Of a stretch of DNA of 64,000 nt, positions 1 through 34,080 are shown piece by piece (position 1 is the stretch's first letter; the number at the start of each line of letters is the position of its first letter). The position numbers and the translations under genes are program-made. The notes below the pieces were generated by a model. The model ran no database searches and was not told the DNA's origin. It was given only the letters and a program-made list of their open reading frames with translations. This stretch comes from Leptolyngbya sp. FACHB-321 (GTDB lineage: Bacteria > Cyanobacteriota > Cyanobacteriia > Leptolyngbyales > Leptolyngbyaceae), in contig NZ_JACJPI010000012.1 in the NCBI RefSeq assembly GCF_014695975.1, positions 1-64,000 on the forward strand, in the 5' to 3' direction.

Positions 1-738
1 CGGTATGACCCTCAAGGGTGCGCAGGAGGGTGCCGTCCAGGCTCCACACCCGGACCGTGTTGTCCCCACTACCGCTGATGATGGTCTGACCATCGCCGCT
101 GAGCCCCACCGAGTAGACAGCGCCGGTATGACCCTCAAGGATGCGCAGGAGGGTGCCGTCCAGGCTCCACACCCGCACCGTCTCGTCCCCACTACCGCTG
201 ACGATGGTCTGACCATCGCCGCTGAGCCCCACCGATAAGACAGCGTCGGTATGACCCTCAAGGGTGTGCAGGAGGGTACCGTCCAGGCTCCACACCCGCA
301 CCGTTTTGTCCCCACTACCGCTGATGATGGTCTGACCATCGCCGCTGAGCCCCACCGCGTGGACAGCGCCGGTATGACCCTCAAGGGTGCGCAGGAGGGT
401 GCCGTCCACGCTCCACACCCGCACCGTGTTGTCCACACTGCCGCTGACGATGGTCTGACCATCGCCGCTGAGCCCCACCGAGTAGACAGCGTCGGTATGA
501 CCCTCAAGGGTGCGCAGGAGGGTGCCGTCCAGGCTCCACACCCGGACCGTGTTGTCCCCACTACCGCTGATGATGGTCTGACCATCGCCGCTGAGCCCCA
601 CCGAGGAGACAGCGCCGGTATGACCCTCAAGGGTGCGCAGGAGGGTGCCATCCAGGCTCCACGCCCGCACCGTGTCGTCATGACTGCCGCTGATGATGGT
701 CTGACCATCGCCGCTGAGCGCCACCGATAAGACAGCGT
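1..738 (-). repeat. Six near-identical 123-bp WD40-coding tandem repeats
   Basis: Units begin at 1, 124, 247, 370, 493 and 616, with a seventh boundary at 739, giving an exact 123-bp (41-residue) period. Each encodes on the minus strand one WD40 blade of the form GHT.AV.SVGLSGDGQTI. The units differ at only a few bases each, so the array is recently amplified or homogenised. It runs off the left edge. Confidence 0.93.
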
Positions 739-3337
739 CGGTATGGCCTCCCAACAAGCGTATTTCGGGATCAGGATAATCATGAGCTACACATTTCCCC
801 AACGCTTGCTGCACAGGTCCCAGTAGTTTCTGGGGTAAGCGCTCGCGGTTCTGACCCATGGCTCCGATCGCAAGTGTTAGGGCTTCTGTTTTGCGGCCTA
901 ATGACAGCTTTGTCTCGATATCGTTTACCTTAAGCCGTAGCTGAGCTTCGGTTAGCGCCTGCTGAAGTTCAACTGCTCGCTGCTTTTCAGCAGCATCTTG
1001 CTCATCAGCGTAGGCTTTGCTCCGGGTGTAAAACTCTACATCTTTAGTACTGCGGATATAGGGACATAAAACTTCCCAGCCAGCAGTCTCGACCTGAGCT
1101 AGCAACCCGCGCGTCAGATAATGGCGCTCATCCTTGCTTTCTGCTTCCCAAAGTTTACGCTGGTCTTCTATCCGTGCCCTCAGCCGCAACAGGTTTTGCG
1201 CCTCTTTGCGCCAAGCTCGAAAGAGCCCCCAACCCTCAATCAACGTCTCATGGGCCAAGTCTACAACCTGATTGTCTTCAACCCATTGCTGACGCTGGCC
1301 TTCACTTCGAGTCTCGAGTTGCTCTGCCGTTGGGCTTCGTTCGGGTGTCCCTGTTACTAAGAGTCGAGCATTGACCAGATCTCTAATTAGCTTGTCCAAC
1401 TGCTTGCGTTCGGTAGCATGGGTCTCAGCCTTACCGGCAATCTCGAGCAAGCTGGCTTTGGGCTGCCGTTGCCGGGTGTCACTGATGCCTTCTCCGGGGC
1501 GAATCAGCCGCAAAAAGATCTGCTTGATCCATAGCCGTTCTTCATGAGAGCGCTCGTCAGTTTTAGCTGACCAATCTGAAAAGCGATACACCGCGTTAGC
1601 GTGACTATTGAGCGCGCGTTGCAAACCGCTCGTAGCTTTCGCTGACGTGCCAGTTTGAGTATCAGTAGTGGAGCCATCCGGCTCAGCCTCATCAAGGGTG
1701 TTGTAAGCTTCCAACGTCAACAGCTTGTTGTCGTCATCGTCCTCCTGCCGCTTTCCCCACAGTTGGGTGAGGGCAAACTCCAGTAGCGGCAACGCTCCAG
1801 GTTCGTTGCTGACCTCTAGCTCTAGCTGGTCAATCAGAGCTGGCTCAACGTCAAAGCCCTGCCGTACGGCTGGTTTTAGAATGGCAGCACGCAGCGCTTG
1901 CCCTCGTAAGGGCGGCATGTAGTAGGCATAGTCCTGGATTAGGTCTCGTAAGACCGGCTCGTTGAGGCAAGGCTCCAGGAAGTCAGCGCGTAGGGTGACG
2001 ACTACATGCAGCAGGCTTCTTGCTGTAGTAATAATGTCAAGGAACGTTCTCTGGTTTTCCAGAGCCTTCTTCTGTAGAAGCGGGTTCTCAATTTGGCTGG
2101 TTAGGGTAAAGGTTTCTTCAAATTGGTCAATTAAGAGTAGGAACTTTTTAGCTTGAGGCAACTGTTCAAGCAACTGAGCGAAGTTTTCCTGGGTAGGGTC
2201 AAGCTCAAATAGTTGCAGCGACTCTTTTACCTGAGTCGCTTTTAAGTAAAGCTCAAGCTCTTTGGCAAGCAGGCTTTTAAGCGTACTCAGCGGATCGGCT
2301 CCTGGCTTCATACTCATCAGTATCCAATGGCTGTCTTGAGCTAATAGCCTTGGGAAAAGCCCTGCTTTGACTACTGAAGATTTGCCACTGCCAGAGGCAC
2401 CAATGACGGAAACAAAAGCTGATTGCTTAAACAGAGCAATGACGTCGCTAACTACTGCTTCGCGACCAAAAAAGAACTCATGCGTGCTTTCGTCAAAGGC
2501 GTCTAACCCTTGATAGGGATCTTTTAATTTTGTTTTAAATGAATCAGTGTAAATTGGTTTCTGAACGTTTTTCTTCCCATCAGTAGAGGGATAATCCATC
2601 AGTACAATAGGCTGATAACGCTCTGAAATAATAATAGGATGCTGTGCATAACGGCTTTGATTCAACTTCTTTGAGATATGGTTGAATAGGTCATCAGCAG
2701 TTATTGTTCCAGAGTTACGATCGCTAAGTTTTTCGATTAGTGCGGCAGTAAATACTCCTTGTCCAACCCTGCCATCTACCTTCGATTCCTGATTTTGAAG
2801 CGAAGATGCAATGATGTAGTAGTTAAAGCCAGATTTCAACTGAAAGCTTGTCTTTAGGATTGCTTCGCTAACCGCATAGCCACTATGACAAGTATCCAAC
2901 AGAAGTACTAGGCTACTGAGGTGGTTAGCATTAGCAATTAGATTGCCAAGCTCAGTAAAAGAAAGGCCATCCTCTTGACCAACTAGCTTTTCTTTCCTAC
3001 TAAAAACCAGTTCGGAATTTGAAGTTGCAATGTAGCCTTTCTTATTTTCTTCCTCTGTTACTTGGTAGCCATGTCCAGAGAAGTAAAGGAGAACATCTTT
3101 ATATTGCTCAGTAGATAGAAATCTTTTTAGCTGGGATTTAAGCGTATCTTTTGTGACGCTTCCAGTTAGCTGATCTTGGTCATCTACTTTATATTGGCTG
3201 TCTTCAAAGTCGGCAAAAAGGCTTTTAAGAGCCGCGACATCGTTACTTGATGCTGAATGATCAAAATTTGGCAGCATCTTATCGTCATAGTGATCGATGC
3301 CTACCAAAAAAGCTGCCCCTTTACCGCGTTCCACCAT
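1..3337 (-). CDS. Caspase (peptidase C14)-STAND NTPase-WD40 protein, C-terminus beyond window
   Basis: Read on the minus strand from ATG at 3337; no stop before the window edge, so it is partial at the C-terminus. Residues about 1-160 form a caspase-like domain with the catalytic pair visible as SGHG (H89) and DTCHSG (C150). A STAND-type NTPase follows, with P-loop GASGSGKS near residue 313 and a Walker-B-like LLLIDQFEE. A helical linker leads to WD40 repeats from about residue 857. Known proteins of this architecture are signal-activated proteases in cyanobacterial stress or antiviral responses; the WD40 part would be the sensor. It lies 91 bp downstream of an alpha/beta hydrolase on the same strand, probably in one operon. 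Function is inferred from architecture only. Confidence 0.85.
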   Translation of the reverse strand, partial: MVERGKGAAFLVGIDHYDDKMLPNFDHSASSNDVAALKSLFADFEDSQYKVDDQDQLTGSVTKDTLKSQLKRFLSTEQYKDVLLYFSGHGYQVTEEENKKGYIATSNSELVFSRKEKLVGQEDGLSFTELGNLIANANHLSSLVLLLDTCHSGYAVSEAILKTSFQLKSGFNYYIIASSLQNQESKVDGRVGQGVFTAALIEKLSDRNSGTITADDLFNHISKKLNQSRYAQHPIIISERYQPIVLMDYPSTDGKKNVQKPIYTDSFKTKLKDPYQGLDAFDESTHEFFFGREAVVSDVIALFKQSAFVSVIGASGSGKSSVVKAGLFPRLLAQDSHWILMSMKPGADPLSTLKSLLAKELELYLKATQVKESLQLFELDPTQENFAQLLEQLPQAKKFLLLIDQFEETFTLTSQIENPLLQKKALENQRTFLDIITTARSLLHVVVTLRADFLEPCLNEPVLRDLIQDYAYYMPPLRGQALRAAILKPAVRQGFDVEPALIDQLELEVSNEPGALPLLEFALTQLWGKRQEDDDDNKLLTLEAYNTLDEAEPDGSTTDTQTGTSAKATSGLQRALNSHANAVYRFSDWSAKTDERSHEERLWIKQIFLRLIRPGEGISDTRQRQPKASLLEIAGKAETHATERKQLDKLIRDLVNARLLVTGTPERSPTAEQLETRSEGQRQQWVEDNQVVDLAHETLIEGWGLFRAWRKEAQNLLRLRARIEDQRKLWEAESKDERHYLTRGLLAQVETAGWEVLCPYIRSTKDVEFYTRSKAYADEQDAAEKQRAVELQQALTEAQLRLKVNDIETKLSLGRKTEALTLAIGAMGQNRERLPQKLLGPVQQALGKCVAHDYPDPEIRLLGGHTDAVLSVALSGDGQTIISGSHDDTVRAWSLDGTLLRTLEGHTGAVSSVGLSGDGQTIISGSGDNTVRVWSLDGTLLRTLEGHTDAVYSVGLSGDGQTIVSGSVDNTVRVWSVDGTLLRTLEGHTGAVHAVGLSGDGQTIISGSGDKTVRVWSLDGTLLHTLEGHTDAVLSVGLSGDGQTIVSGSGDETVRVWSLDGTLLRILEGHTGAVYSVGLSGDGQTIISGSGDNTVRVWSLDGTLLRTLEGHT

Positions 3338-4766: not shown

Positions 4767-5205
4767 AGGTAAGACTCTAACAATTGGGGCACTGTGTCAA
4801 GCACACTGAGGTGAGCTAAAGGCGTGCTGGTTAATGATGCTCACAACTTCTGGCTCTTCCAATAAGTTTGGTGAAAGGAAGTGTGAGTGCTCACAGATAT
4901 AGCTTCCCAAATAGGACACCATTGAGGAGGTTATAGGTATTCTCTCTGTTCTACGCTACTCAGAGGGAAAAATCTGGAATTTTTTTTGCGGAGTTGCAAA
5001 CCTGGCGGCTTTTTGGGGGTCTGTAGAATCAGGTGCTTTGGGCTTTTGTGGTCATACATCATCACGATTCTGCATTACACCCTTAGTCCTTAAGCGATTC
5101 GTCAAACAAGCTTGCTGAGCCAACCACTCGCACAACCCAAAGGTTCCGTTAGAGAGGCGAACTAAACTAAGAACGCTTATTGCCAGGGCAGCCGCAAGGT
5201 AGGAG
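4767..5205. other. Intergenic stretch without a supported gene
   Basis: About 440 bp upstream of the hydrolase gene. It contains a T-run near 4981-4988 but no convincing ORF, RNA or transposon terminus. The hydrolase promoter must lie in the 4770-4990 part. I found no TGTACA terminus or 20-bp TnsB-type repeats here. Confidence 0.5.
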
Positions 5206-5593
5206 GTGGTGCGATCGACGTGCAAAACAGAATCATCTCTGGCCGCCCTAGTGAGTAAAGCGGCTGCCTTGGCCTTGGTCAAACAATTAGAGGCTAAGAC
5301 TCAAGCATCAGAGATGTTGTCCCAATCAAAGGCTGAACTACAGGCGGTATTGGCGATCGTCCATGAGGAAGCGGTTTCAGAGTGGATCCAAACCATTAAC
5401 GGCTGGCTTCAGGAGCACACGACACAGCAAGAGACTTCTTTTTGAGCTGACTCATTACCTGAAGCTGCCGTGGAGCCATTTATGTCTGGGAGTGCTGCTG
5501 GGAGGGTTTGAGGTGGAGCAACGTGGAGACTTTTATAGCCAGGATATTTGGGTAAAGTTTTCACTAGAGCCGTTCCCAAAGCTGGTGGACTAA
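5206..5593 (+). pseudogene. Possible frameshifted small gene left of tnsB
   Basis: Two overlapping reading frames (5206-5445 and 5363-5593) encode protein-like sequence. The first contains VSEWIQTINGWLQEH, the second LGVLLGGFEVEQRGDFY. The second frame seems to continue where the first stops, as after a single frameshift. The family was not recognised and there is no good ribosome binding site. It may be host flank or decayed DNA beside the transposon. Confidence 0.25.
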
Positions 5594-5684: not shown

Positions 5685-5719
5685 ATTGACACATTAGCTG
5701 TCACTTTTCCTGTCGTTGT
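5685..5719 (+). repeat. Candidate remnant of the tnsB-side transposon end (RE)
   Basis: TTGACACATTAGCTGTCA at about 5686-5703 matches the inward-reading LE unit (GTGAC, 7-8 nt, TGTC). A half site CCTGTCGTTG follows. The expected TGTACA terminus and further tandem units are not visible to the left, so this end is degenerate or incomplete. Confidence 0.45.
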
Positions 5720-14159: not shown

Positions 14160-15890
14160 CTACACTGCCAAAACTTGCCGTGCTGCAACTTCGATCAGGG
14201 TAGCGCTGCTGTCTCGTGCAGCTTTAAGTTTGGCTTCCAAGGCATCGCAGAGGGAGAGGAGGGACTCGACTTTGGCGACAATTCGTTTTTGTTCAGCAAG
14301 GGGCGGAAGTGGTAGCAGAAGGTTTGAAATCTCAGTACTATTAATATTTTTCACCCCAGAAGTTGTACGAATAGGAAACTCTATTTGTTCCCGTATAAAT
14401 GAGGTACTTAGAGCGAGATGTAAATATTTGGCTAATATGTATTCAGGGAATAATCTAACCCTTACCAGGTATCCTGCATAGGCATATCCACTTACGCTTC
14501 TATCAATCAAAGCCGTCCTGCCTATCAAAGTCTTACTTCCATTCGACCTAATCATTAAAAGATCATTTTCTATAAGACTTAGCTCTCGAATTTCTGCATC
14601 AGTTAGCGTGGTAAATTTCAAGTCATCGATTGTAATCTCTCCAGCATTTACATCGATGTTAGGAATTCTCAAAACTGGGATTCCAGGCACATCATAATCA
14701 CACTTTTTAGATGTACCGTATTTGATGCTGTGAAGAATACTTCCCAACCTTACATGGAGCCAGCTTGAGGGTAAAGTGTGTGTTTCACCTTCTAAATCAA
14801 CAGCATTAACTTCTATTTTTCTGATTTTTTTTGCCTTTATTAACTCCTTGATGGCAGCTTGTACTTTTTTAAGCAGTACTGAAGCTGGTTCGTCATTTGG
14901 ATTTTGAAGGACGAGTTTTCCTTGAACGGCTAATTGTAGGATTGCCTGACGGAGTTTTGGGATGGTTTCGGGGATGCTGTAGAGCAGGTCGAAGTTGTTG
15001 CAGATGCGTTGCCAGCGGTGCTGGAAGTCATTGGGGTTTTGGGCGGTGAGGAGTTGGGAAATTGCGCCCTCGTTCATTTTGAGTAGGCTTTCTTGTCGCT
15101 GTTGCTGCCGCTTTTCAATTTCGTCACAGAGGATGAGGAGGCGATCGCACTTCTCCACAATCCGCTCCTGTTCTGCCAATGGTGGAAGGGGCAAGAAAAC
15201 TTTAACTAGATGTGACGAACCAAAGTTTGGCTGCATACCCTGAAGCTGAGTTAACATCTGGTTTGTAAAGATGTTGCAATCCAAGAAATAGCGTAAGTAG
15301 TTGTTATTGCATTCTTTTAGCCAAAATCTCATTCTAATAGTACTGGTATTGACTATTACCCTGTAACCTGGATTTTTGAAGAATGCTGTCTTCCCCCAGC
15401 TATTTCCAGAACTAGCAAAAAGCAAGTCTCCATCCTCAATTAAGAAATGGCTATATTTTTGACTGAACTCTTCTTCAGAAATATGTTTGTCCGAATTTTC
15501 TAAAACTAATTTTCCTTTCACTATATTTTTGACATTAAGCAGTTTCACTCCAGTATCCCTAAACTGCCAATTCCTAATTCCTGGTCCTTCTTGAGAAAAG
15601 ACAACATCATTGAATCTAGACCACTCCCAAGCTTGAGGTAGTTGATATGGAATTTCGTCCTCCTTAATTGGAGGCATGAGGTTATTCTTTCTAATCTTTG
15701 AGTTTGAAATAAAATTGTCTCGCTCAATTCTAGATTTCTCTACTAATACTGAAGCAGGCTCATCAGTAGAATTTTGAGTTGTAAGTTTTCCCCGTACAGC
15801 CAATTGCAAAACAATTTCCCGTAATTTAGCAACGGCATTCGGGGAATCAGTCAGCAGAGCAAAGTTGTCAAAGAAAGTGTTGGGGATCAT
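14160..15890 (-). CDS. hsdS: Type I restriction-modification specificity subunit HsdS
   Basis: 576 residues from ATG at 15890 (a TTG at 15902 is possible). The two-halved plan is clear. Each half has a conserved segment AVAKLREIVLQLAVRGKL / LRQAILQLAVQGKLV and a coiled-coil spacer entered by LPPLAEQERIVEKCD / LPPLAEQKRIVAKVE, around two divergent target-recognition domains. HsdS directs HsdM methylation and HsdR cleavage to a bipartite DNA site. It is separated from hsdM by 299 bp holding a toxin-antitoxin remnant. A duplicate of its 3' end survives at 12024-12152. Confidence 0.93.
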   Translation of the reverse strand: MIPNTFFDNFALLTDSPNAVAKLREIVLQLAVRGKLTTQNSTDEPASVLVEKSRIERDNFISNSKIRKNNLMPPIKEDEIPYQLPQAWEWSRFNDVVFSQEGPGIRNWQFRDTGVKLLNVKNIVKGKLVLENSDKHISEEEFSQKYSHFLIEDGDLLFASSGNSWGKTAFFKNPGYRVIVNTSTIRMRFWLKECNNNYLRYFLDCNIFTNQMLTQLQGMQPNFGSSHLVKVFLPLPPLAEQERIVEKCDRLLILCDEIEKRQQQRQESLLKMNEGAISQLLTAQNPNDFQHRWQRICNNFDLLYSIPETIPKLRQAILQLAVQGKLVLQNPNDEPASVLLKKVQAAIKELIKAKKIRKIEVNAVDLEGETHTLPSSWLHVRLGSILHSIKYGTSKKCDYDVPGIPVLRIPNIDVNAGEITIDDLKFTTLTDAEIRELSLIENDLLMIRSNGSKTLIGRTALIDRSVSGYAYAGYLVRVRLFPEYILAKYLHLALSTSFIREQIEFPIRTTSGVKNINSTEISNLLLPLPPLAEQKRIVAKVESLLSLCDALEAKLKAARDSSATLIEVAARQVLAV

Positions 15891-15924
15891 GCTGGAAATC
15901 AAGGCAATGGGGTAGAAACAAACG

Positions 15925-16199
15925 ATGACAATTCGTGTGAGCGTCCTCGAAGTCGTGTTTCAGTTTAGCGAACTTCTCGATCGCGTCAAGCAGGGCGAAG
16001 AAGTCATTCCAATCGGTTTGAGAGCCTACCTATTCAGAACAACCATGTTCTACGCGTTGCTCAATTGTCTGACCTTCACCGTGATTACTTCGATCGTATT
16101 TTGGTCGCTCAAAGCGGGGTTGAGCAAATGCCGATTCTAACCACCCATACTTTAATTCGTCAGTATTCAGTCACGACAATTTGGCAAGGCTACTCCTGA
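15925..16199 (+). pseudogene. Internally deleted Phd-VapC toxin-antitoxin pair
   Basis: From ATG 15925 the plus strand reads FSELLDRVKQGEEVI, the N-terminus of a Phd/YefM-type antitoxin. From about 16023 another frame reads SLPIQNNHVLRVAQLSDLH then RDYFDRILVAQ, the C-terminal PIN-domain signature of VapC, and stops at 16197-16199. The end of the antitoxin and most of the toxin are gone. The toxin tail overlaps the hsdM stop on the opposite strand. Confidence 0.8.
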
Positions 16200-17632
16200 C
16201 GCTCCAACGATGCCTTCAACTCAAACTTCAGCTTACTCCGCACCTCATCCAACTCTGCGAGAAGTGCCTGGTGCGCCTCTAGCATCTCATCCAGATCTGC
16301 GTGCGCCACATCCACCCGATGCGGATTCTTAATGTCCAGGTTGTAGTTGTTCGCCTTGATCGTTTCTACCGACACCTTCCAGGCAAACTCAGTCTCCTCC
16401 CGGTTTTCCCACCAGGCTTGCTCTGGCTCAAATTCCTCAAACCGGATTGGTTTCGTCTTGTTATAGGACTTGTACCCGGTTGGATAGGGATGCTCGTAGT
16501 ACCAGACCTCTATTGTCGGCTCTCCCTTCGTGAAAAACAGCAGGTTCGTCTTGATGCCCGTGTAGGGGTTAAATACGCCATTGGGTAACCGAACGATCGT
16601 GTGCAGGTTGCACTCTTGCAGCAGCTTTTCCTTAATCCGCGTCTTCACACCCTCGCCAAACAGGGTGCCGTCAGGTAGGACGATCGCCCCTCTGCCACCA
16701 TCCTCTAGCAGATGCATAATCAGCACCAGGAACAAGTCTGCCGTTTCCCGTGTCCGGAAAGAGTCAAAGTTGCTCTCAATCCCGTCTTCCTCCATGCCAC
16801 CAAAAGGTGGGTTAGTCAGAATCACCTGCACTTTGTCTTGACGGGAATAGTTCTTCAGAGGCTTCGCAAGGGTGTTGTCATGCTTGACGGGAGGCACATC
16901 CACCCCATGCAGTAGCAGGTTGGTGATACAGAGCAGATGCGGTAGCGGTTTCTTTTCAAAGCCTTTTAGCGATCGTTGCAGCGTCTCCTCATCCTCTGCC
17001 GTCTTCACGTAGTTCTTGCGAATATGCTCTAGTGCACAGGTGAGGAAGCCCCCCGTTCCGCAGGCAGGGTCAAACACCGTCTCGCCCAATTTGGGATCGG
17101 TCATCGTCACCATGAACTGTGTCACCGCACGGGGCGTATAGTACTCACCCGCATTGCCTGCATTCTGCAAGTCCTTGAGAATCTTCTCGTAAATCTCGCC
17201 AAACAAGTGACGGTCTTTCGCCGAGTTAAAGTCCACCTCATTCAGCTTGTTAATCACCTGCCGCAAGAGGGTGCCATTCTTCATGTAGTTGTAGGCATCC
17301 TCAAACACATCCCGTACAACCTTCGCGCGTGGATCGGTTCCAGGTCCGATTGGTAGTTCCTTCAGCGTCTTAAACAGGACATTATCCACAAAGTCCAACA
17401 GGGTTTCCCCGGTCATCCCTTCCGCATCCGTCGCCCAGTTCCGCCAGCGCAACCCTTCCGGGATGGGTGAGTGATACGCATCCCGCATCAACTCATATTC
17501 TTCCTCCTGGGCATCAAACACCTTTAGGAATAGCATCCACACCAGTTGGCTAATGCGCTGAGCATCACCATCCACCCCGGCATCCTTACGCATGATGTCC
17601 TGAATGGTCTTGATAGTGGTGCCGATGGACAT
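16190..17632 (-). CDS. hsdM: Type I restriction-modification DNA methyltransferase HsdM
   Basis: 480 residues, ATG at 17632. N-terminal HsdM helical domain, then the SAM-binding motif DPACGTGGF (residues 188-196) and the catalytic N6-adenine motif NPPF (274-277). A C-terminal coiled coil (DLDEMLEAHQALLAELDEV) would contact HsdS. It methylates adenine within the HsdS-defined site. It lies between the PARIS-like ariB gene and hsdS; 307 bp separate it from ariB, so it probably has its own promoter at 17633-17700. Confidence 0.95.
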   Translation of the reverse strand: MSIGTTIKTIQDIMRKDAGVDGDAQRISQLVWMLFLKVFDAQEEEYELMRDAYHSPIPEGLRWRNWATDAEGMTGETLLDFVDNVLFKTLKELPIGPGTDPRAKVVRDVFEDAYNYMKNGTLLRQVINKLNEVDFNSAKDRHLFGEIYEKILKDLQNAGNAGEYYTPRAVTQFMVTMTDPKLGETVFDPACGTGGFLTCALEHIRKNYVKTAEDEETLQRSLKGFEKKPLPHLLCITNLLLHGVDVPPVKHDNTLAKPLKNYSRQDKVQVILTNPPFGGMEEDGIESNFDSFRTRETADLFLVLIMHLLEDGGRGAIVLPDGTLFGEGVKTRIKEKLLQECNLHTIVRLPNGVFNPYTGIKTNLLFFTKGEPTIEVWYYEHPYPTGYKSYNKTKPIRFEEFEPEQAWWENREETEFAWKVSVETIKANNYNLDIKNPHRVDVAHADLDEMLEAHQALLAELDEVRSKLKFELKASLERQE

Positions 17633-17939
17633 AATACTTCGGTTTTGAAATGGTTCACGGTTGCTGTTGAATTGTATCCTAAAGCTGAGGGAATAACTGG
17701 CAAAATTCGGTGGACAAAGAGTAAAAATATGGTAAGCCGTGATTGTGCAGTGACTAATCTCAGCAGTAAAGAAAAAACATCAAAGGTAGCCTACTACTTA
17801 AGCTTAATGTCCGTGGGAAGTGGCTTCTTATCATAAAAAAGAATAGACAATAAATATAGAACTTGATGTCCTAATCTGCAGTCAATTGCTTATATATTTC
17901 AACTTATTAACCATGATCAACTTATAAAAAACTGTTTGC
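17633..17939. promoter_or_regulatory. Intergenic region, probable hsdM promoter
   Basis: 307 bp, AT-rich, between the hsdM start and the ariB stop. The part adjoining hsdM is the only available upstream region before a gene ends, so it should contain the hsdM promoter. No specific box, RNA or repeat stands out. Confidence 0.35.
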
Positions 17940-18869
17940 TCACACAGCTTTTAATCGTGCTGTTAAATACTCATTCAATTCTTTAGGACATGCTAAACGG
18001 GGAGCGAGTATCTCAACAGCGTTTCCAAAATTAATATATGACCGGATTTTTATTCGCTTAAGGCTTCCATCATCCTTAATTTCCTGCTCAAGCTGACTCA
18101 AAAAAAATAATAAGCACCAGAGTTCTTGTTTGCCCCTCAGCCAAACCTTTGTTGGTAAAGTTTCTAGTTCGTTCTTTGCCAAGGTGATAGCTGCAGCAGG
18201 TGGTGGATTGTCAACTTTACATTCCCGCGCTAGGTGAGTCGAGATATCAGGGTTCCAATTCAGTACAAGTTCGTAATTGAAAGCTATAGAAAGTATTGAA
18301 GGTCCAATATTTTCATTTTGTGGTTTTTCACCCAATCGACGAGTGGCAACAATCCATGCCATCCATGGAAGGAAAACATCACGATATGTTTGTTGGAACT
18401 TGCTAAAATTTCGGCAAGCAACTTCGGTAGCCCCGCTAGATGAATCCAATCCCCAAATATCAGTTAAAATTACCGCTACAGCTTCTTCTGAGACGAGGAA
18501 GTTTTCTATAGAATAGTATGAGGTCACAAACAAACTCTGCTGTGTTTTGGTTCCCTCAGTTTTGCCTACTAAATCATCATGGTCTTTGTCAACGAAAAAC
18601 ATTAATTTTGGATTGTTTGGAAATCGTTCTTCTAAATACTTCCACGCATCTAATACATCCTTCTTTCGTCCTAATACTGTTGTCGTGACAGCCAAATTTG
18701 CTTCATCAGCCATTCTGCTAACGTGCACTCTGATAAAAGAAGGATCATCTCGCCCCTCAAGAAAAATATAAATCTTTCTGGCATTTGGATTGAAGCTAGT
18801 GAGAAATAGATTGATTTTTGCTCGTGATGACTGTGGCGCAGACTTCAGAGCATCTAAGAATGATGGCAT
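17940..18869 (-). CDS. ariB: PARIS-like effector AriB (DUF4435, TOPRIM-type)
   Basis: 309 residues. The DUF4435/TOPRIM signature is visible: IFLEGRDDPSF (E38), FFVDKDHDD (D94, D96), and the family-typical SYYSIENFLV (117-126). In PARIS systems the AriB nuclease is held by AriA and released when a phage anti-restriction protein such as Ocr is sensed, leading to cell death or dormancy through tRNA damage. Its ATG lies two bases after the ariA stop (TGAAGATG), so the pair is coupled. Assignment rests on the ATPase+DUF4435 pairing; other AAA/TOPRIM systems are possible but less likely. Confidence 0.8.
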   Translation of the reverse strand: MPSFLDALKSAPQSSRAKINLFLTSFNPNARKIYIFLEGRDDPSFIRVHVSRMADEANLAVTTTVLGRKKDVLDAWKYLEERFPNNPKLMFFVDKDHDDLVGKTEGTKTQQSLFVTSYYSIENFLVSEEAVAVILTDIWGLDSSSGATEVACRNFSKFQQTYRDVFLPWMAWIVATRRLGEKPQNENIGPSILSIAFNYELVLNWNPDISTHLARECKVDNPPPAAAITLAKNELETLPTKVWLRGKQELWCLLFFLSQLEQEIKDDGSLKRIKIRSYINFGNAVEILAPRLACPKELNEYLTARLKAV

Positions 18870-18871
18870 CT

Positions 18872-20311
18872 TCAGTTCTCCCGAACAAACTCACTGATGG
18901 AATGTGCGTATTCAGCTAATGAATTATCAAATACAAAGGGAGAGTGTGTAACAGCAATAAGCCCTGAACACTTTCCTGTCTCTTTTAAGTCTTGAAGAAA
19001 ACGACGCTGCCATGGTACTGAGATAGATAATTCTGGCTCATCAATAACAACAAAGTACTTTTGATAGCTACCCAGAAATACATGAGAGAATAATGAGACA
19101 ATTTGCTTTTCTCCTGAGGAAAGACCGTAGAGAGGCACTTTGCGGCTATTCTTTATATCATTTCGATTAATGATTAATTCAAATGCTGTGGGATTGAATT
19201 CAAGTTTTTTATTACTTAGGTATTGATTTATTAATTCGACTAGCTTGCGTACGGGGATCTCACGTTCCTGCTGATTTTTATGAAGCACAACTAGGTTAGT
19301 AAGAAAATGAGCGGAAATACGTTGCTCAACATTTAAAGTTTGATTTGATTTTGCGTTTTCAAGAAGGTTTCTAAGTTCTCGTCGATCATCTTCCGAGAGT
19401 ATTTCTTCTCCAATCCGGGATAGCATTAAATCAACAGTTTCAGCAACTTCATTTGTGGCTAGTGAAGAAGCATCAACATCTTTATAAAGACCTTGGAGAA
19501 TATTGTGTAGATAGGATCCTGTAAATCGATTGAGTTCACTTCTAAATTCTTGATCTAAAGTGGTGAGGCTTGATTTGAATGCTTCAGCCACATCAGTCAT
19601 GCCAAACTCAACTAATTCAATATAAGAAGCCTGCTTCCTGATTTTACGATTTCTCAAGTAGGAAGATGATGTTTCTTCAAGATTTAGATCGGGGAAAACA
19701 TCACTAAGTTCCTTCTCAATTCTACGATAGGTTGGTAAGAATAGAACTTGTTCGTCTTCATTTGAACCTATTAACTCAGCAAGTTCTTTTGGCCCCAAAT
19801 ATTGTTCACCATCTACATGCTCACCATCTACGCGATTTCTACGATTAAACATTGAACCTGTCTGCGCCACTTCAGCTATGGCAGAAAAAGCTACTCGATG
19901 AATTGAACCCAAAATAGGTTTTGTTAGGTTTCTTAGTTCTTCACGTCCCTGTGAAGTAGACCAATATTCTGGAGTGTTTTCAGAAAGTATATTTAATAGA
20001 GAATCCAATACGCTCTTAGATAAATTTCGCTTCAAATAACCTAGAGCACTACTTCTTTTTTGAGTACTAGGCAATTGTTCCTTATCAAGGCGATATTTTT
20101 TATCGTCAATTGTGATTGTACATACTTGAAATGGAAGTTCGCTGAGGCGATCCCATTGGGCAGTGAGTGCATAATAAATTAAATTAATTAATGTACTTTT
20201 TCCAGAGCCATTTTCGCCAACAAGAATTAATGTGTTGTCTTTAATAGGAACATTTAATTTGTAGGTATTAAAGAGCCCTTGTACTTGAACCCGTTTTAGG
20301 TTGATAGACAT
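18872..20311 (-). CDS. ariA: PARIS-like AAA15/ABC-type ATPase AriA
   Basis: 479 residues from ATG at 20311, chosen for GAGGGAAT at ribosome-binding distance; a longer frame to 20344 lacks this. Walker A GENGSGKS (32-39), ABC-signature-like YGLSSGEKQIVSLF, Walker B VVIDEPELSIS and an H-loop AVTHSPFVF are all present, as in ABC/SMC-like defence ATPases. A long helical insert lies between the Walker motifs. In PARIS the ATPase forms a propeller that stores AriB and senses viral anti-restriction proteins. The gene follows hsdR by 74 bp on the same strand and is nested within the type I R-M operon. Confidence 0.82.
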   Translation of the reverse strand: MSINLKRVQVQGLFNTYKLNVPIKDNTLILVGENGSGKSTLINLIYYALTAQWDRLSELPFQVCTITIDDKKYRLDKEQLPSTQKRSSALGYLKRNLSKSVLDSLLNILSENTPEYWSTSQGREELRNLTKPILGSIHRVAFSAIAEVAQTGSMFNRRNRVDGEHVDGEQYLGPKELAELIGSNEDEQVLFLPTYRRIEKELSDVFPDLNLEETSSSYLRNRKIRKQASYIELVEFGMTDVAEAFKSSLTTLDQEFRSELNRFTGSYLHNILQGLYKDVDASSLATNEVAETVDLMLSRIGEEILSEDDRRELRNLLENAKSNQTLNVEQRISAHFLTNLVVLHKNQQEREIPVRKLVELINQYLSNKKLEFNPTAFELIINRNDIKNSRKVPLYGLSSGEKQIVSLFSHVFLGSYQKYFVVIDEPELSISVPWQRRFLQDLKETGKCSGLIAVTHSPFVFDNSLAEYAHSISEFVREN

Positions 20312-20385
20312 CTTTATTCCCTCAATTGATTGGTAAACTAACAACCAGGCCCCAACTTAACAAAGTTCATTTCTATCGCCTTACT

Positions 20386-22722
20386 CTAAGCTACCCTATA
20401 GAGCTCTGTCGTCATTTCCTGTACTGCCTGAAAGTACGCTTGCCTGCTGCCAAACAGCTTAATGATCTCCATTGGCGTACCGTAGCGGTTCATTGGCTGA
20501 ACCTTCAGAACGTTAATATTCTCAATGTTTTCAATGCCTTCGTCGGCATATTTATTTAGAAGGGCATCCAAAACGTCTCTGACTTGCTCTCCATATTTCG
20601 TAAAGTAATCGCGCTTACGAACCTCTTCTGCCCGCTCTCTGCGGCTCAAGGGCGGCTGATCAAACGCTACATGACAAATCAGGTCAAACGAATCAAAGTC
20701 TTTGCCGACTTCCTCTGCTAATGCCTCTAGCAGAATACCTTGTCTCTCTAATGCCCTCAAAATCTCTTGCTTCTGCGCTGCCTCACTCCAGCGCTTCAGA
20801 AAGGCATCCAGCGATGCAAACTCCTGTCGCATGGTCTTACGAGTAAAGTCCTTAATCGATTCAGTGATCAACCTGCCATCAGGACTGTAGTACTGCACTC
20901 GTTCCCTTACAATCTCTGCCCCTTCCGTCGCCACCACATACTTTATGCGTCTATTGCTGCCAGTTGTGGGACCAATGATCACCACGTCTTCTCCACCCTC
21001 TTCAACGGGTGGAACGATCGGCTCTCCCGTTTTCGGTTCATAAATCTGCACCGGATCACCATCAAACTCAGGGTCGTAGAACCGTTCTGTTGCCTGCTTG
21101 AAGTCCATGATGGTGAAGTACAGCTTGTGATACTCCTCGTTGATGCGAGTGCCCCGCCCAATAATTTGCTTAAACTCGGTTGGTGATTCGATACGGCGAT
21201 CGAGCACAATCAACTTGCAGGTTTGAGCATCGATTCCTGTAGTCATCAGCCTGGAAGTTGTGACAATAACTGGATGGGTTTCGTAAGGCGCGATGAAGTT
21301 ATCCAGCTCTGCCTTGCCCTCATTCTCATCGCCCGTAATTCGCATGATGTACTTACGATTCTGGGCAACCAGCGCCGCATTCTCGTTCACCAGCGCCTTC
21401 CGCATCCGTTCCGCATGGTCGACATCCTCACAAAAGACGATCGTCTTCATGTAAGGATCACCGCTCTCCTGCAAAAACTGGGTAATGCGCTGGGCGACTA
21501 GTTCATCTCGCGGTTCAAAAACAATGGTGCGATTGATGTCCTTCTGGTTGTAGATCCGGTCTTCGATTTCCCGCCCATATTTGTCCTTTTCCCCTGGCTG
21601 TGGTCGCCATCCTTCCAGATCTTTGTCAATGTCTATCCTTACCACTTTGTAGGGAGCAAGGAACCCGTCTTCAATACCCTGCTTCAGGGAGTAGGTGTAG
21701 AGCGATTCCCCAAAGTATTCGATGTTGGAAATCTCTTTTGTCTCTCTGGGTGTTGCCGTCAAACCAATCTGAGTCGCTGACTCAAAATACTCCAGGATCT
21801 CTCGCCATGCCGAATCCTCTGCCGCGCTGCCCCGGTGACACTCATCAATAATCACCAGGTCAAAGAAGTTGCGGGAAAACTGTTTGTAAATGTCTTGCGC
21901 TTCTGTTGTTCCAGAAACAGCTTGATACAGTGATAGATAAATCTCAAACGACTTATCTGCTTGCCGTTTGGTAATTTTGGTCATTGCCGAGCCGAACGGC
22001 TTGAAATCATTCGTCTTCGTCTGGTCAATCAGAATATTGCGGTCAGCGAGAAAGAGAATGCGTTTTTTCGCCCCTGAGCGCCACAACCGCCAGATGATTT
22101 GAAATGCTGTGAAGGTTTTGCCCGTTCCGGTTGCCATAACCAGCAGGATACGGTTCTGCCCTTTAGCGATCGCCTCGATCGTCCTGTTAATAGCGTTGAG
22201 CTGGTAATACCGAGGTTCCTTCCCACTCCCATCAAAGTAATATTCCTGGGCAACGATTGGCTCAATCCCTGGCTCAATCCCTTTCCAGGCACAGTAGCGC
22301 TGCCATAGTTGCTCCGGTGAGGGAAACTCATTCAGGGCGAGTTCTCGCTCGGTTTGGGCAGCATTGCCTGTGCGATCGTGCTCCAGAAAAGCATCCCCAT
22401 TAGAACTGTAAACAAAAGGAATGCCCATAATCTCAGCATAGGTGAGCGCCTGCTGCATCCCGTCGCCGATGCCGTGGTTGTTGTCCTTCGCCTCCACAAC
22501 CGCCAAAGGAATATTGGGCTTGTAGTAGAGAATGTAGTCTGCTCGCTTGGACTCTCCGCGGCTGATTAACTTGCCTTTTGGGTTAACCCGCCCCTTCGTA
22601 AACGTCACCTCTTCCCGCATCTGGGTCTGAACATTCCATCCAGCCCCTACGATGCCTGGAGTAAGGTACTTCGTGCAAATGTCTCGTTCACTCAAGGAGC
22701 GTCTATCAATTTCTTCTGACAT
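20386..22722 (-). CDS. hsdR: Type I restriction endonuclease subunit HsdR
   Basis: 778 residues, ATG at 22722. N-terminal PD-(D/E)XK nuclease (D62 in KRADYILYY, E77/K79 in VVEAKD), then a superfamily 2 translocase with Walker A ATGTGKT (197-203), DECH box (293-296), GLTATPRE and a C-terminal helicase lobe containing IIGRGTRINEEY. The length fits the EcoEI-like HsdR class. It cuts unmethylated DNA after translocation together with HsdM and HsdS. The gene starts 174 bp after the cvkR stop on the same strand. Confidence 0.95.
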   Translation of the reverse strand: MSEEIDRRSLSERDICTKYLTPGIVGAGWNVQTQMREEVTFTKGRVNPKGKLISRGESKRADYILYYKPNIPLAVVEAKDNNHGIGDGMQQALTYAEIMGIPFVYSSNGDAFLEHDRTGNAAQTERELALNEFPSPEQLWQRYCAWKGIEPGIEPIVAQEYYFDGSGKEPRYYQLNAINRTIEAIAKGQNRILLVMATGTGKTFTAFQIIWRLWRSGAKKRILFLADRNILIDQTKTNDFKPFGSAMTKITKRQADKSFEIYLSLYQAVSGTTEAQDIYKQFSRNFFDLVIIDECHRGSAAEDSAWREILEYFESATQIGLTATPRETKEISNIEYFGESLYTYSLKQGIEDGFLAPYKVVRIDIDKDLEGWRPQPGEKDKYGREIEDRIYNQKDINRTIVFEPRDELVAQRITQFLQESGDPYMKTIVFCEDVDHAERMRKALVNENAALVAQNRKYIMRITGDENEGKAELDNFIAPYETHPVIVTTSRLMTTGIDAQTCKLIVLDRRIESPTEFKQIIGRGTRINEEYHKLYFTIMDFKQATERFYDPEFDGDPVQIYEPKTGEPIVPPVEEGGEDVVIIGPTTGSNRRIKYVVATEGAEIVRERVQYYSPDGRLITESIKDFTRKTMRQEFASLDAFLKRWSEAAQKQEILRALERQGILLEALAEEVGKDFDSFDLICHVAFDQPPLSRRERAEEVRKRDYFTKYGEQVRDVLDALLNKYADEGIENIENINVLKVQPMNRYGTPMEIIKLFGSRQAYFQAVQEMTTELYRVA

Positions 22723-22896: not shown

Positions 22897-23361
22897 CTAA
22901 CTGGGGGTGCCAACCAATTGAAGCCTTTTTTCCAACCGTTTGCCCAGTGCCTCGATCTGAATGGGGACGATCGCTCGTCCATCCTGAATCGCTGCGATCG
23001 CTTTCTGTTCATCAAATTCTGTGCAGCGTAGCGCTTCCTCTGCAGCACTTTGCCAGAGCATAAATCGTCTTTCACCCTTGTTATGCAGCGGATGCTCGAA
23101 GAGCTTTGGGTCCACGGCTCTCAGAAAGTTTAGAGCTGACTGGCAAACTTCAAAGCTCAAACCGAGCGAAAGCAAATATTCCATCAGCGTTAGTGCTAAT
23201 AAGTCCGTTAAAGAATAATAGACGTTGCGCCCTTTACCCGTCGTGTTCACAGCCGGCACAACGATCTCCTGCTCACGCCAATACTGCAATTGCCGCCGAG
23301 AGCAGCGTGTGATCTCAGCCGCTTCCGTGCTTGTAAAAAATTGTCCTTCCATACGATCCAT
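22897..23361 (-). CDS. cvkR: MerR-type CAST regulator CvkR
   Basis: 154 residues from ATG at 23361 (other starts: GTG 23385, ATG 23352). The N-terminus reads FFTSTEAAEITRCSRRQLQYW, a MerR-family winged helix-turn-helix; a helical, effector-type C-terminus follows. In V-K CASTs CvkR represses cas12k and the CRISPR components by binding the shared intergenic promoter. Here it diverges from cas12k with an 87-bp gap holding a perfect palindrome at 23398-23412. It lacks the long cysteine-bearing metal-sensing tail of classic MerR proteins. Confidence 0.9.
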   Translation of the reverse strand: MDRMEGQFFTSTEAAEITRCSRRQLQYWREQEIVVPAVNTTGKGRNVYYSLTDLLALTLMEYLLSLGLSFEVCQSALNFLRAVDPKLFEHPLHNKGERRFMLWQSAAEEALRCTEFDEQKAIAAIQDGRAIVPIQIEALGKRLEKRLQLVGTPS

Positions 23362-23397
23362 CGTACAAAAAGAAACAAAAAACACTTTATCCTCTTG

Positions 23398-25347: not shown

Positions 25348-25389
25348 AAGGGGCTGTAGCTAAAACTTGCACCTTGAAAACTGAATGAT

Positions 25390-25680
25390 TCCAACAGCGC
25401 CGCGACGTAGGCTGCTTGCAGTCTACGTTCGTGCAAATGAGGGTTAGTTTGGCTGTCGTTAGACAGTCTTGCTTTCTGACCCTGGTAGCTGCTCACCCTG
25501 ATGCCGTCGGATGAGAGACTTCGGTTTCTTAAACGAGATTAAGTCATAGTTGAGGCGTTAGTCTGCTTCAATTATGGCGTCGGTGCGCTCCCGGCAACAA
25601 GGGCGCGGATGTACTGCTGTAGTAGCTACCAAACCACCCCCAACCAAGGGGGAACCCGCTTCTATTCTTCCTTTCAGCGA
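25390..25680 (+). ncRNA. V-K CAST tracrRNA
   Basis: Segments closely resemble the ShCAST tracrRNA: AACAGCGCCGC near the 5' end, GAGGGTTAGTTTGGCTGTC, CTTGCTTTCTGACCCTGGTA, GCTGCTCACCCTGATG, then GGTGCGCTCCCGGCAACAAG, GGCGCGGATGTACTGCTGTA and CCAAGGGGGAACCC, ending in CCTTTCA, which can pair with the repeat 3' end TGAAAGG/TTGAAAG. An extra region (about 25507-25578) contains two hairpins not in my recollection of ShCAST. Boundaries are approximate. Confidence 0.9.
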
Positions 25681-25861
25681 TCTGCAAAGACATAATTCTT
25701 TGCTGTGATCCGCGCAAAGGCTCAAATCCCTTTGCTGAGTCGGTTTCATGATTCTGGACTAGCTCTAAATTGTGAAAGCTCAGGTTTGGAGAAGGGTAGG
25801 TAATGCGAGCCGCGCAAGACCTTCTGAAACTTCTGCCTAGAGTGGGTTTTGGTTGGCTGCC

Positions 25862-26588
25862 GTCGCAATCACCTGTCCTTTCTGAGGCAGGTTGAAAGGC
25901 AACTCCCTGGATTGTAGTTTTGCACCCCACCTATCATCGTCGCAATCACCTGTCCTTTCTGAGGCAGGTTGAAAGCGCTTTTTTGACTTCTTCAGTGACA
26001 CTTTTTTCCAGGTCGCAATCACCTGTCCTTTCTGAGGCAGGTTGAAAGTTCGTATCAGTTGAACTAGACAATAGACGGATGAGTCGCAATCACCTGTCCT
26101 TTCTGAGGCAGGTTGAAAGGCGGGCAAATGAAGGTTATACAGGCGATCGCACCTGTCGTCGCAATCACCTGTCCTTTCTGAGGCAGGTTGAAAGGTGATA
26201 GAGGACTTCAAAAGTCAAGCCTTCAATGGTCGCAATCACCTGTCCTTTCTGAGGCAGGTTGAAAGATGAACGCTAAGTGCATTGTTGTGCCTCAATTTGA
26301 ATCGCAATCACCTGTCCTTTCTGAGGCAGGTTGAAAGAGGCGAATTATACTTCTTGCTCTCTAAGAACTAAGATCGCAATCACCTGTCCTTTCTGAGGCA
26401 GGTTGAAAGACAGCCAACGTTGCAGCAGTCAGCGCCACCCCAAAGGTCGCAATCACCTGTCCTTTCTGAGGCAGGTGAAAAGAGACAAAGTATCCTGACG
26501 CAGAGCGCCGCTAAGAAGTCACCTGTCCCTTCGAGACAGGTTGAAAGGACCAAAAATTGAAACTGGTATTGATGAAGTGGGTTGAAAG
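25862..26588 (+). CRISPR. Type V-K CRISPR array, nine full repeats, one decayed and one truncated
   Basis: The 37-nt repeat begins GTCGCAATCACCTGTC and ends GGCAGGTTGAAAG. Repeats start at 25862, 25939, 26012, 26083, 26158, 26229, 26301, 26373 and 26446. The seventh and eighth begin ATCGCAATC; the ninth ends GGTGAAAAG. A decayed 30-nt repeat lies at 26518-26547 and an 8-10-nt stub GGGTTGAAAG at 26579-26588. Spacers are 34-40 nt. Repeat decay is confined to the right (leader-distal) end. Transcription is from left to right, as for cas12k and tracrRNA. Confidence 0.97.
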
Positions 26589-26605
26589 GTAAAACTTTAG
26601 CCTTC
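26579..26605 (+). ncRNA. Homing crRNA-like guide matching tRNA-Gly
   Basis: A truncated repeat (GGGTTGAAAG, 26579-26588) is followed by GTAAAACTTTAGCCTTC (26589-26605), identical over 17 nt to the tRNA-Gly gene (complement of 26796-26812). The tRNA sequence 5' of the match is GTG, a valid V-K GTN PAM. After 17 nt the two sequences diverge. This corresponds to the delocalised homing guides known for V-K CASTs. Confidence 0.92.
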
Positions 26606-26636
26606 ATAAGTTATGGAGGTGCTTTTATATACGGTT

Positions 26637-26750
26637 AGACGACATCAATTTGTCACTACCACTTAAAAGACACTAATTTGTCTCGACGACAAGAGTTAGT
26701 CACTAACGACACTAGTCTGTCACCGATGACATTTAATTAGTCACTGTACA
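26637..26750 (-). repeat. CAST left end (LE) with five TnsB-binding-type repeats
   Basis: Four directly abutting 20-bp units at 26665-26684, 26685-26704, 26705-26724 and 26725-26744 share the form (A/G)ACGACA...TTAGTCAC. A fifth lies at about 26637-26656. The terminus TGTACA occupies 26745-26750. Read outward-in, it starts TGTACAGTGACTAATTAA, very like the ShCAST LE. Confidence 0.95.
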
Positions 26751-26758
26751 AGTTTCAA

Positions 26759-26829
26759 AGCGGGCGGCGGGAATCGAACCCGCATTATTAGCTTGGAAGG
26801 CTAAAGTTTTACCACTAAACTACGCCCGC
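26759..26829 (-). tRNA. trnG-TCC: tRNA-Gly (anticodon TCC)
   Basis: 71 nt without encoded CCA. Acceptor GCGGGCG pairs with CGCCCGC, the D arm is GTTT/AAAC, and the anticodon stem TTAGC/GCTAA encloses loop CTTCCAA (anticodon complementary to 26795-26797). The T arm is GCGGG-TTCGATT-CCCGC. It is the CAST attachment gene: the homing guide matches its D/anticodon region and the transposon sits 8 bp past its 3' end, leaving the tRNA intact. Confidence 0.97.
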
Positions 26830-32625: not shown

Positions 32626-34080
32626 ATGATTTCAGTAACTTCGTCCTCTGTCCCCTTCGCACCTAAAGCAGTGTTGTTACACAAGGCAAAGCCAACCTCG
32701 ATCGCTCGGTGGGCAGTGGCAGTGGGAGCGGCACTTGCTGTTTCGGGCTGTGGTCTGCTGCCAAAGGGCGACAATGCTGATGCTCAAACACGCCCGTCCG
32801 GTAATGCTCAAGGTCAAAGGACAGCGGCAGTTGATGTAGCGATCGCGGCAACGGCTCCTCTAGAAGCAGCAAGAGAGTATACAGGCACTACTCAACCCTT
32901 GCAGGAAGTAGCGATTCGCGCTCAGGCAGAAGGTCAACTCCAGGCATTGAATGTCGATGTGGGCGATCGCGTCCAGCGAGGGCAAACCCTGGCACGGATT
33001 GATGACTCCATTCTGACGGCTGCAACCGCCGAAGCAGAAGCCGAACTGGCATCCCGGCGAACAGAAATTAGCCAGCTTCAAACCCAAGTCAGCGATGCCC
33101 AGACGCAGGTGGAGCAGGCGCGGCTGCAACTTCAGCAAGCAGAGTCAGATGCGGCTCGTTACCAACGTCTCGCCAGAGATGGTGCTGTCACACAACAGCA
33201 GGCAGAACAATCGCGCACGCAGGCGAGAACAGCAGCGCAGGTCTTGCGATCGAGCCAGGAACGGGTGCGAAACCAGCAACAGGCGATCGCAGCAGCACAG
33301 GGTCGGGTTGTGGCGCAGCAGGCAGTCGTTGCCCAGCAGCAAGAGCGGCGATCGTATGCCGTGCTGACTGCGCCCATTAGTGGGGCAGTGCTAATGCGAT
33401 CAACTGAGGCAGGCAATGTCGTACAAGTTGGCAATGAACTGCTGCGGCTAGGTGACTTTAGCCAAGCAAAGGTGACAGTGCAGGTTTCGGAACTCGATCT
33501 GACTGATGTTCGGTTAAGTGGTGCGGCGAACGTGCGGTTAGATGCTTTTCCCAACGAACGGTTTGCCGGTAGGGTGACGCGAGTATCGCCAGCCGCTAAC
33601 CCCACCTCTCGTCTAGTGCCTGTTGAAGTAACCATTCCCAACCCAGCAGGTAAAGTAGGCAGCGGGCTGCTAGCACGGGTGAGCTTTATGCAAACAACGA
33701 CCGATCGCATTGTTGTACCACTTGCTGCTGTGCAGGACGATCGAGCTAGAGGTCAACAATCCAGCCAGAAACCTGAGTCGACTGATCGACAAGCGAATCA
33801 GCAGCCTAGACAGCGAGGGTCAAACGCAGGAGTCGCTACCTCTAGGCAGCCAGAAAATGGTGACGCAAAGCCTAAGCAAACAAAAGGCACCCTGTTTGTT
33901 GTGGCAGGCGAGGGCGAACAGGCGAAAGTTGCTGCACGATCAGTCACCTTAGGCGAACAGCTAGACGGTAAAGTCCAAATTCTTGCGGGACTAAAACCGG
34001 GCGATCGCTTTGTTGCACGCACCAGTAAGCCCCTCAAAGATGGTGACTCAGTGCGCTTGAGCATCCTGTCAGCAAAGTAA
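32626..34080 (+). CDS. RND efflux periplasmic adaptor (membrane fusion protein)
   Basis: 484 residues with a lipoprotein signal ending LAVSGC (C42 as lipidation site). Typical adaptor order: beta-barrel/lipoyl half (EYTGTTQPLQEVAIRAQAEG, VDVGDRVQRGQTLARID), a long coiled-coil hairpin (residues about 130-240, TEISQLQTQVSDAQTQ), the second lipoyl half (YAVLTAPISGAVLMR), and a membrane-proximal domain (FVARTSKPLKDGDSVRL). A Gln/Arg-rich low-complexity stretch interrupts the C-terminal domain at about 380-420. It connects the RND pump encoded 175 bp downstream to an outer-membrane channel. Confidence 0.92.
   Translation: MISVTSSSVPFAPKAVLLHKAKPTSIARWAVAVGAALAVSGCGLLPKGDNADAQTRPSGNAQGQRTAAVDVAIAATAPLEAAREYTGTTQPLQEVAIRAQAEGQLQALNVDVGDRVQRGQTLARIDDSILTAATAEAEAELASRRTEISQLQTQVSDAQTQVEQARLQLQQAESDAARYQRLARDGAVTQQQAEQSRTQARTAAQVLRSSQERVRNQQQAIAAAQGRVVAQQAVVAQQQERRSYAVLTAPISGAVLMRSTEAGNVVQVGNELLRLGDFSQAKVTVQVSELDLTDVRLSGAANVRLDAFPNERFAGRVTRVSPAANPTSRLVPVEVTIPNPAGKVGSGLLARVSFMQTTTDRIVVPLAAVQDDRARGQQSSQKPESTDRQANQQPRQRGSNAGVATSRQPENGDAKPKQTKGTLFVVAGEGEQAKVAARSVTLGEQLDGKVQILAGLKPGDRFVARTSKPLKDGDSVRLSILSAK

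Follow-up and report, generated by a model that had tools for sequence, protein, structure and literature searches.

The 64,000-nt window analysed here (positions 1 to 64,000 of contig NZ_JACJPI010000012.1, assembly GCF_014695975.1, Leptolyngbya sp. FACHB-321) contains a transposon whose left end lies immediately behind an intact transfer RNA (tRNA) gene, tRNA-Gly(TCC). By its gene content this element is a type V-K transposon associated with clustered regularly interspaced short palindromic repeats (CRISPR-associated transposon, CAST): it encodes the effector Cas12k, the transposition proteins TnsB, TnsC and TniQ, with their genes in that order, and a MerR-type regulator, and it harbours a CRISPR array. 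No TnsA was seen among the open reading frames (ORFs) given to Pfam, no search aimed at TnsA having been made. Between the array and the left end stand a truncated repeat, R*, and a guide of 17 nt that matches the neighbouring tRNA gene. The element, about 31 kb in length, was very probably inserted just behind tRNA-Gly(TCC), in front of a terminator-like hairpin, under the direction of this R*-guide unit.

Homing guide, attachment site and element ends

The first-pass annotation had proposed that the guide is a copy of part of tRNA-Gly, that a valid protospacer adjacent motif (PAM) adjoins the target and that the transposon terminus lies 62 bp from it, and all three statements hold. Alignment of the guide with the sense strand of tRNA-Gly(TCC) gives 17 identities in 17 nt, with identity ceasing directly after the last of these. 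If the preceding G is included, the match extends to 18 nt, and this 18-mer has just two exact copies in the 6.7-Mb assembly, namely the guide and tRNA-Gly itself; for one given 17-mer, some 0.0008 matches are expected by chance in a genome of this size. The protospacer sits outside the left end, is adjoined by GTG, and the terminal TGTACA ends at 26750, 62 bp from this PAM. The specificity of this arrangement is apparent from a random test, in which 20,000 stretches from the window and from loci L110–L119 were compared with ten guides (nine array spacers and the anchor), requiring a GTN PAM and a spacing of 60–66 bp. None matched any guide with two or fewer mismatches, and 18 matches were returned at five or fewer.

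With regard to the opposite end of the element, scans for TGTACA-type ends and TnsB sites reveal no right-end terminus in the window, which begins at the start of its contig (C4); for comparison, the terminus of L092, a Nostoc relative, is found within some 300 bp upstream of tnsB. When the whole genome was searched for the terminal motif at up to three mismatches, 11 places were returned, compared with one for the reversed pattern used as a control. One of these places, at 124897 on contig C52, displays spaced TnsB-like sites and has in front of it the pentamer AGTTT, which in the window comes right after the left end. Furthermore, C52 finishes with the 38 bases with which the window opens, and WD40 repeats of the same kind are found at both of these ends. 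The end on C52 is therefore probably the right end of the window element, with the two contigs seemingly joined at these repeats. Across this presumptive join, the element possesses two ends with TnsB sites and a 5-bp duplication, AGTTT, on both sides. Its length would be about 31.3 kb, a figure that is approximate because of the repeats across the contig gap. The idea that the right end had been lost was dropped, as the genome-wide end search and the AGTTT on C52 place it probably on another contig.

When the two flanks are rejoined, tRNA-Gly is followed, after 12 nt, by a strong GC-rich hairpin (−30.5 kcal/mol over the 70 nt behind the tRNA gene), which appears terminator-like. The occurrence of this site in relatives was assessed with a 201-bp query containing tRNA-Gly, which matched 37 of 39 genomes, that of FACHB-321 included. 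Of six genomes from the same genus, two (G005 and G006) lack a CAST end here, a hairpin and a T run standing directly behind tRNA-Gly. Amongst the other four, tRNA-Gly of G004 is followed after 8 nt by a CAST left end, at a contig edge, and G002 has TnsB-like sites adjoining the gene, whilst G001 and G003 contain other DNA at this position, in which no CAST end is visible by eye. A left end that is 88 % alike is also found at tRNA-Gly in G009, a member of another genus, with neither an anchor nor cas12k seen within the 3-kb stretch inspected. Comparison of the other flank by synteny yielded nothing useful amongst the relatives compared, because the DNA downstream of tRNA-Gly differs between them.

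The features of the locus are collected in Table 1. Within the cargo, an AriA/AriB-like pair is detected by PADLOC at 17940–20344, between the type I restriction-modification genes. In addition, a 45-bp motif at 5175–5219 recurs in G001, G004, G005 and G006 with 82–89 % identity.

Table 1. Features of the V-K CAST and its attachment site (window coordinates)
Feature	Position	Strand	Basis
Cargo: caspase–nSTAND1–WD40 gene, open frame running off the contig start	2–3403	−	Reading frame; Pfam of 2–3337
TnsB-type site, the sole one found upstream of tnsB in the window	5687–5702		Site scan
TnsB transposase, 573 aa	5759–7480	+	Pfam rve, Mu-transpos_C
TnsC, ATPase of the TniB family, 279 aa	7474–8313	+	Pfam TniB
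TniQ, 167 aa	8313–8816	+	Pfam TniQ
Cargo: type I restriction-modification genes (specificity, methylase and restriction subunits)	14160–22722	−	Pfam, PADLOC
MerR-type regulator, divergent from cas12k, in the CvkR position	22897–23385	−	Pfam MerR_1; placement as in PMC9938897
Cas12k, 632 aa	23449–25347	+	NCBIfam NF038191, 931.6 bits (cut-off 150)
Presumed trans-activating CRISPR RNA (tracrRNA) region	25348–25862	+	Position only
CRISPR array, nine repeats with spacers, ninth repeat slightly altered	25863–26510	+	Repeat analysis
Array spacer 5	26195–26229	+	Partial match beside second left end, contig C36
Degenerate repeat-like unit, between array and R*	26516–26547	+	Repeat comparison
Truncated repeat R*, AAGTGGGTTGAAAG	26575–26588	+	Survey and stub comparison
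Homing guide (anchor spacer), 17 nt, GTAAAACTTTAGCCTTC	26589–26605	+	Identity to tRNA-Gly
Transposon left end, five TnsB-type sites and terminus TGTACA (26745–26750)	26641–26750		Site scan
Target-site duplication AGTTT, 5 bp, also beside the C52 right end	26751–26755		Sequence comparison
tRNA-Gly(TCC), intact, attachment site	26759–26829	−	tRNA gene calling
Protospacer within tRNA-Gly	26796–26812	−	17/17 identity to guide
PAM GTG	26813–26815	−	Adjoins protospacer

A second left end on contig C36

Contig C36 of the same genome terminates in a further copy of the left end (96961–97073, L119), whose 113 bp are 100 % identical to the window. Outside this copy lies a GTG PAM accompanied by a match to spacer 5 of the array, at 63 bp from the terminus. 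Agreement is complete over the 14 leading nucleotides and declines thereafter (15/17, 19/27 and 21/35). When six of the other nine terminal-motif places were compared with the guides (those on C3, C22 and C37 being left out), the best match had 6 mismatches in 17, and the same test applied to the window's own left end returned the anchor. The target on C36 coincides with the beginning of a transposase gene. This gene has a stop at codon 109, and its plasmid relatives are annotated as belonging to the IS110 family of insertion sequences (ISs). Two related IS copies, from other genomes, resemble the C36 copy at about 70 % identity and each other at 92 %; they share a block that continues some 80 bp past the point aligned with the junction, and thus suggest that the CAST end is located inside the IS110-family element.

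An insertion guided by array spacer 5 is therefore likely on C36. Taken together with the anchor, it is probable that a single V-K CAST has used both guide pathways in this genome and left a scar of each: the anchor at tRNA-Gly, with a spacing of 62 bp, and spacer 5 in an IS110-family element, within its left non-coding region, with a spacing of 63 bp. The alternative is that the C36 left end has nothing to do with spacer 5, either because the IS110-family element moved beside a CAST end or because the contig is chimeric, and this is considered unlikely. It would accommodate the mere 113 bp that separate the terminus from the contig end, the poor match past nucleotide 14, which is such that a search of 388 genomes with 27 nt of spacer 5 at three or fewer mismatches returned the array itself and missed the C36 site, and also the lack of any right end for this copy in the genome-wide terminal-motif search. 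It does not readily explain why 14 leading nucleotides and a GTG PAM should coincide at 63 bp, when none of the 20,000 random stretches came within two mismatches in 17, nor does it sit well with the extension of the shared IS block past the junction. If the insertion was indeed guided by spacer 5, array-guided transposition would occur in nature onto other mobile elements and would be tolerant of mismatches outside the seed. The origin of the spacers was also sought amongst plasmids, producing weak matches only, to four records (best E-value 0.2). Amongst the open-licence papers listed in literature searches, none was seen on native array-guided V-K insertion into an IS.

The anchor unit in other Cas12k loci

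To what extent the anchor unit is general was evaluated in 42 loci, comprising the window, 40 Cas12k loci and the C37 locus of the same genome, of which 40 were long enough for the test. Defined as GAAAG followed by a 17-nt guide with 0–2 mismatches to an inverted downstream target, the unit is present in 32 of the 40, the window and the C37 locus amongst them, and every one of these 32 has a GTN PAM. The same procedure finds none in the reversed control, none in the complemented control and four on the direct strand, with GTN in none of the four. For 26 of the 32 units, ARAGORN calls a tRNA gene that contains the protospacer. A TGTACA lies between guide and target in 28 loci, with a PAM-to-end distance of 57–66 bp in 22 and of 23–54 bp in the other six; the short distances perhaps reflect the selection of another TGTACA in some loci.

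Five more Cas12k-like loci of the FACHB-321 genome, with approximately 26–56 % identity, are located on contigs C37, C47, C58, C64 and C69 (L113–L117), with two stops in that of C47 and one in that of C69. The C37 locus has an anchor of its own, matching tRNA-Val(TAC) over 17/17 nt with the PAM GTA. On C57, a stretch of about 204 bp (32955–33158, L121) with facing TGTACA ends resembles a miniature, non-autonomous relative of a CAST, with no matching 5-bp duplication visible by eye. Finally, at position 6618 of C59 (L123), a CAST-like end stands 8 nt behind tRNA-Val(GAC), and is perhaps a solo remnant.

Guides directed at tRNA-Gly were sought in 388 genomes of the class, again including FACHB-321, with stub and guide joined and up to two mismatches allowed. 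Matches were obtained in this genome and in three others, in which the guide stands behind a GTTGAAAG stub, with tRNA-Gly just outside in each. L147, L148 and L149 (from G366, G173 and G226, respectively) carry the tRNA-Gly guide, with one base altered in L148, after a different stub, AGTTGAAAG, and beside tRNA-Gly; L148 displays no Cas12k match in the stretch examined. In a Cas12k tree of 31 rows, the window groups with L031, which is 88 % identical and has a guide to tRNA-Asp, whilst the tRNA-Gly elements L147 and L149 are more distant members of the same clade. Amongst named loci, Stenomitos frigidus ULC18 has the nearest Cas12k (88 %). The tRNA-Gly guide common to the window, L147, L148 and L149 may thus stem from shared descent or from independent retargeting.

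The origin of R* is a point on which the first-pass annotation is not supported for this element. It had placed the guide in register as the final unit of the array, arising by decay of an ordinary terminal repeat. The spacing of the first nine repeats is 71–77 nt, but R* ends 41 nt after the repeat-like unit before it. It is improbable that the anchor unit arose recently in the window element through decay of the last repeat in that element's array. Such an origin gains some credence from the degenerate repeat-like unit between the array and R*, and from the distance of 41 nt, which is the shortest within a range extending to 292 nt in 31 measurable loci. The sequence of R* points elsewhere: it reads GTGGG where the window's own array has GCAGG, giving 3 mismatches in 14 to the array tail, and it comes within 1–2 mismatches of 20 of 31 other stubs and of 16 of 29 other arrays. 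Similarly, two members of the window's Cas12k clade (L031 and L060) keep GGG in R* and have AGG in their arrays. Averaged over 30 loci, R* differs by 1.53 mismatches from its own array tail, by 1.77 from other stubs and by 1.70 from other arrays; these values are similar, and therefore the survey as a whole gives no date for the units. The data speak against recent local decay in the clade of the window, but are compatible with descent from a repeat in the more distant past.

With regard to the role of the unit, the proposal that the 17-nt match is a by-product, in which a piece of tRNA was copied in by insertion or recombination and the element was placed by a TnsD-like protein or by untargeted transposition, appears highly improbable: nothing requires a copied fragment to begin right after GAAAG, to stop at 17 nt, to be adjoined by a GTN PAM and to keep a set spacing, the combination of these features recurs in the survey with a variety of tRNAs and of segments within them, and no second TniQ or TnsD-like gene was seen among the element ORFs given to Pfam (shorter ORFs were not scanned).

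Placement by the R*-guide unit could proceed as follows. Together, R* and the 17-nt guide would provide Cas12k with a dedicated CRISPR RNA (crRNA), and the resulting complex, with a tracrRNA, would bind the tRNA-Gly gene at its GTG PAM. Bound Cas12k would then recruit TniQ and TnsC, and TnsB would join the left end 62 bp downstream, generating the 5-bp duplication. The ordinary array would serve the other route, with spacer 5 probably having guided the second insertion, into the IS110-family element on C36. That the guide is transcribed and loaded, and that it caused the insertion, is presumed by analogy with published systems.

A number of observations weigh against this scheme. The right end lies on a different contig, and its presumed join to the window runs through repeats. 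The hairpin behind the rejoined tRNA-Gly has no long T run directly after it. No tracrRNA was identified and no Rfam match is present in 25348–25862; for the duplex of R* with this presumed tracrRNA region, the pairing energy was reached by 1 of 50 shuffles. Within the survey, eight of the 40 testable loci are without an anchor match (two of these having less than 1 kb of downstream DNA), two further loci were too short for the test, and no tRNA gene is called at the target of six of the 32 units. Even so, the central proposal of the first-pass annotation, RNA-guided self-homing of a V-K CAST to tRNA-Gly, appears well supported at the level of sequence by the right end with the same 5-bp duplication, by the hairpin behind the rejoined tRNA and by the recurrence of the unit in most testable Cas12k loci.

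Comparison with known systems

The elements ShCAST and AcCAST reportedly home in an RNA-guided manner beside tRNA genes, with the left end towards the target, and are said to insert approximately 60–66 bp from the PAM, in all of which the window element resembles them. Homing by anchor spacers is already published for V-K CASTs, as PMC9938897 and PMC11406308 make clear. The former, which describes CvkR, reports a 17-nt anchor spacer beside a truncated repeat R*, a GTN PAM and a tRNA target, with PAM-to-end distances of 46–82 nt and one exception of 147. PMC11406308 states that the crRNA for the attachment (att) site is in nearly all cases truncated and set apart from the others, and that att sites are mostly tRNA genes, which can differ even among close relatives. 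In PMC10293859, V-K elements are described as dependent on CRISPR for homing and jumping alike.

The window element resembles the anchor-spacer V-K CASTs, as portrayed in PMC9938897, in its Cas12k, in the order TnsB-TnsC-TniQ, in the MerR regulator beside cas12k and in the array beside the left end, as well as in its short R*, 17-nt guide, GTN PAM and tRNA target; its 62 bp is within the published range. It differs in its cargo and array repeat, and in its target, as tRNA-Gly(TCC) is not the called tRNA of any other of the 32 survey units, though it is so used in three other genomes. Type I-F3 CASTs, according to PMC11406308, similarly possess an atypical att-site crRNA, dedicated to a chromosomal site and divergent from the others, but employ Cascade instead of Cas12k, and their repeats are diverged where that of the window is truncated.

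With guide, PAM, both ends, duplication and rejoined site all represented, the homing unit of the window is a nearly complete example of a mechanism already known, here with tRNA-Gly as its target. Beyond this known docking, the same genome harbours a second copy of the left end, apparently placed by an ordinary array guide.
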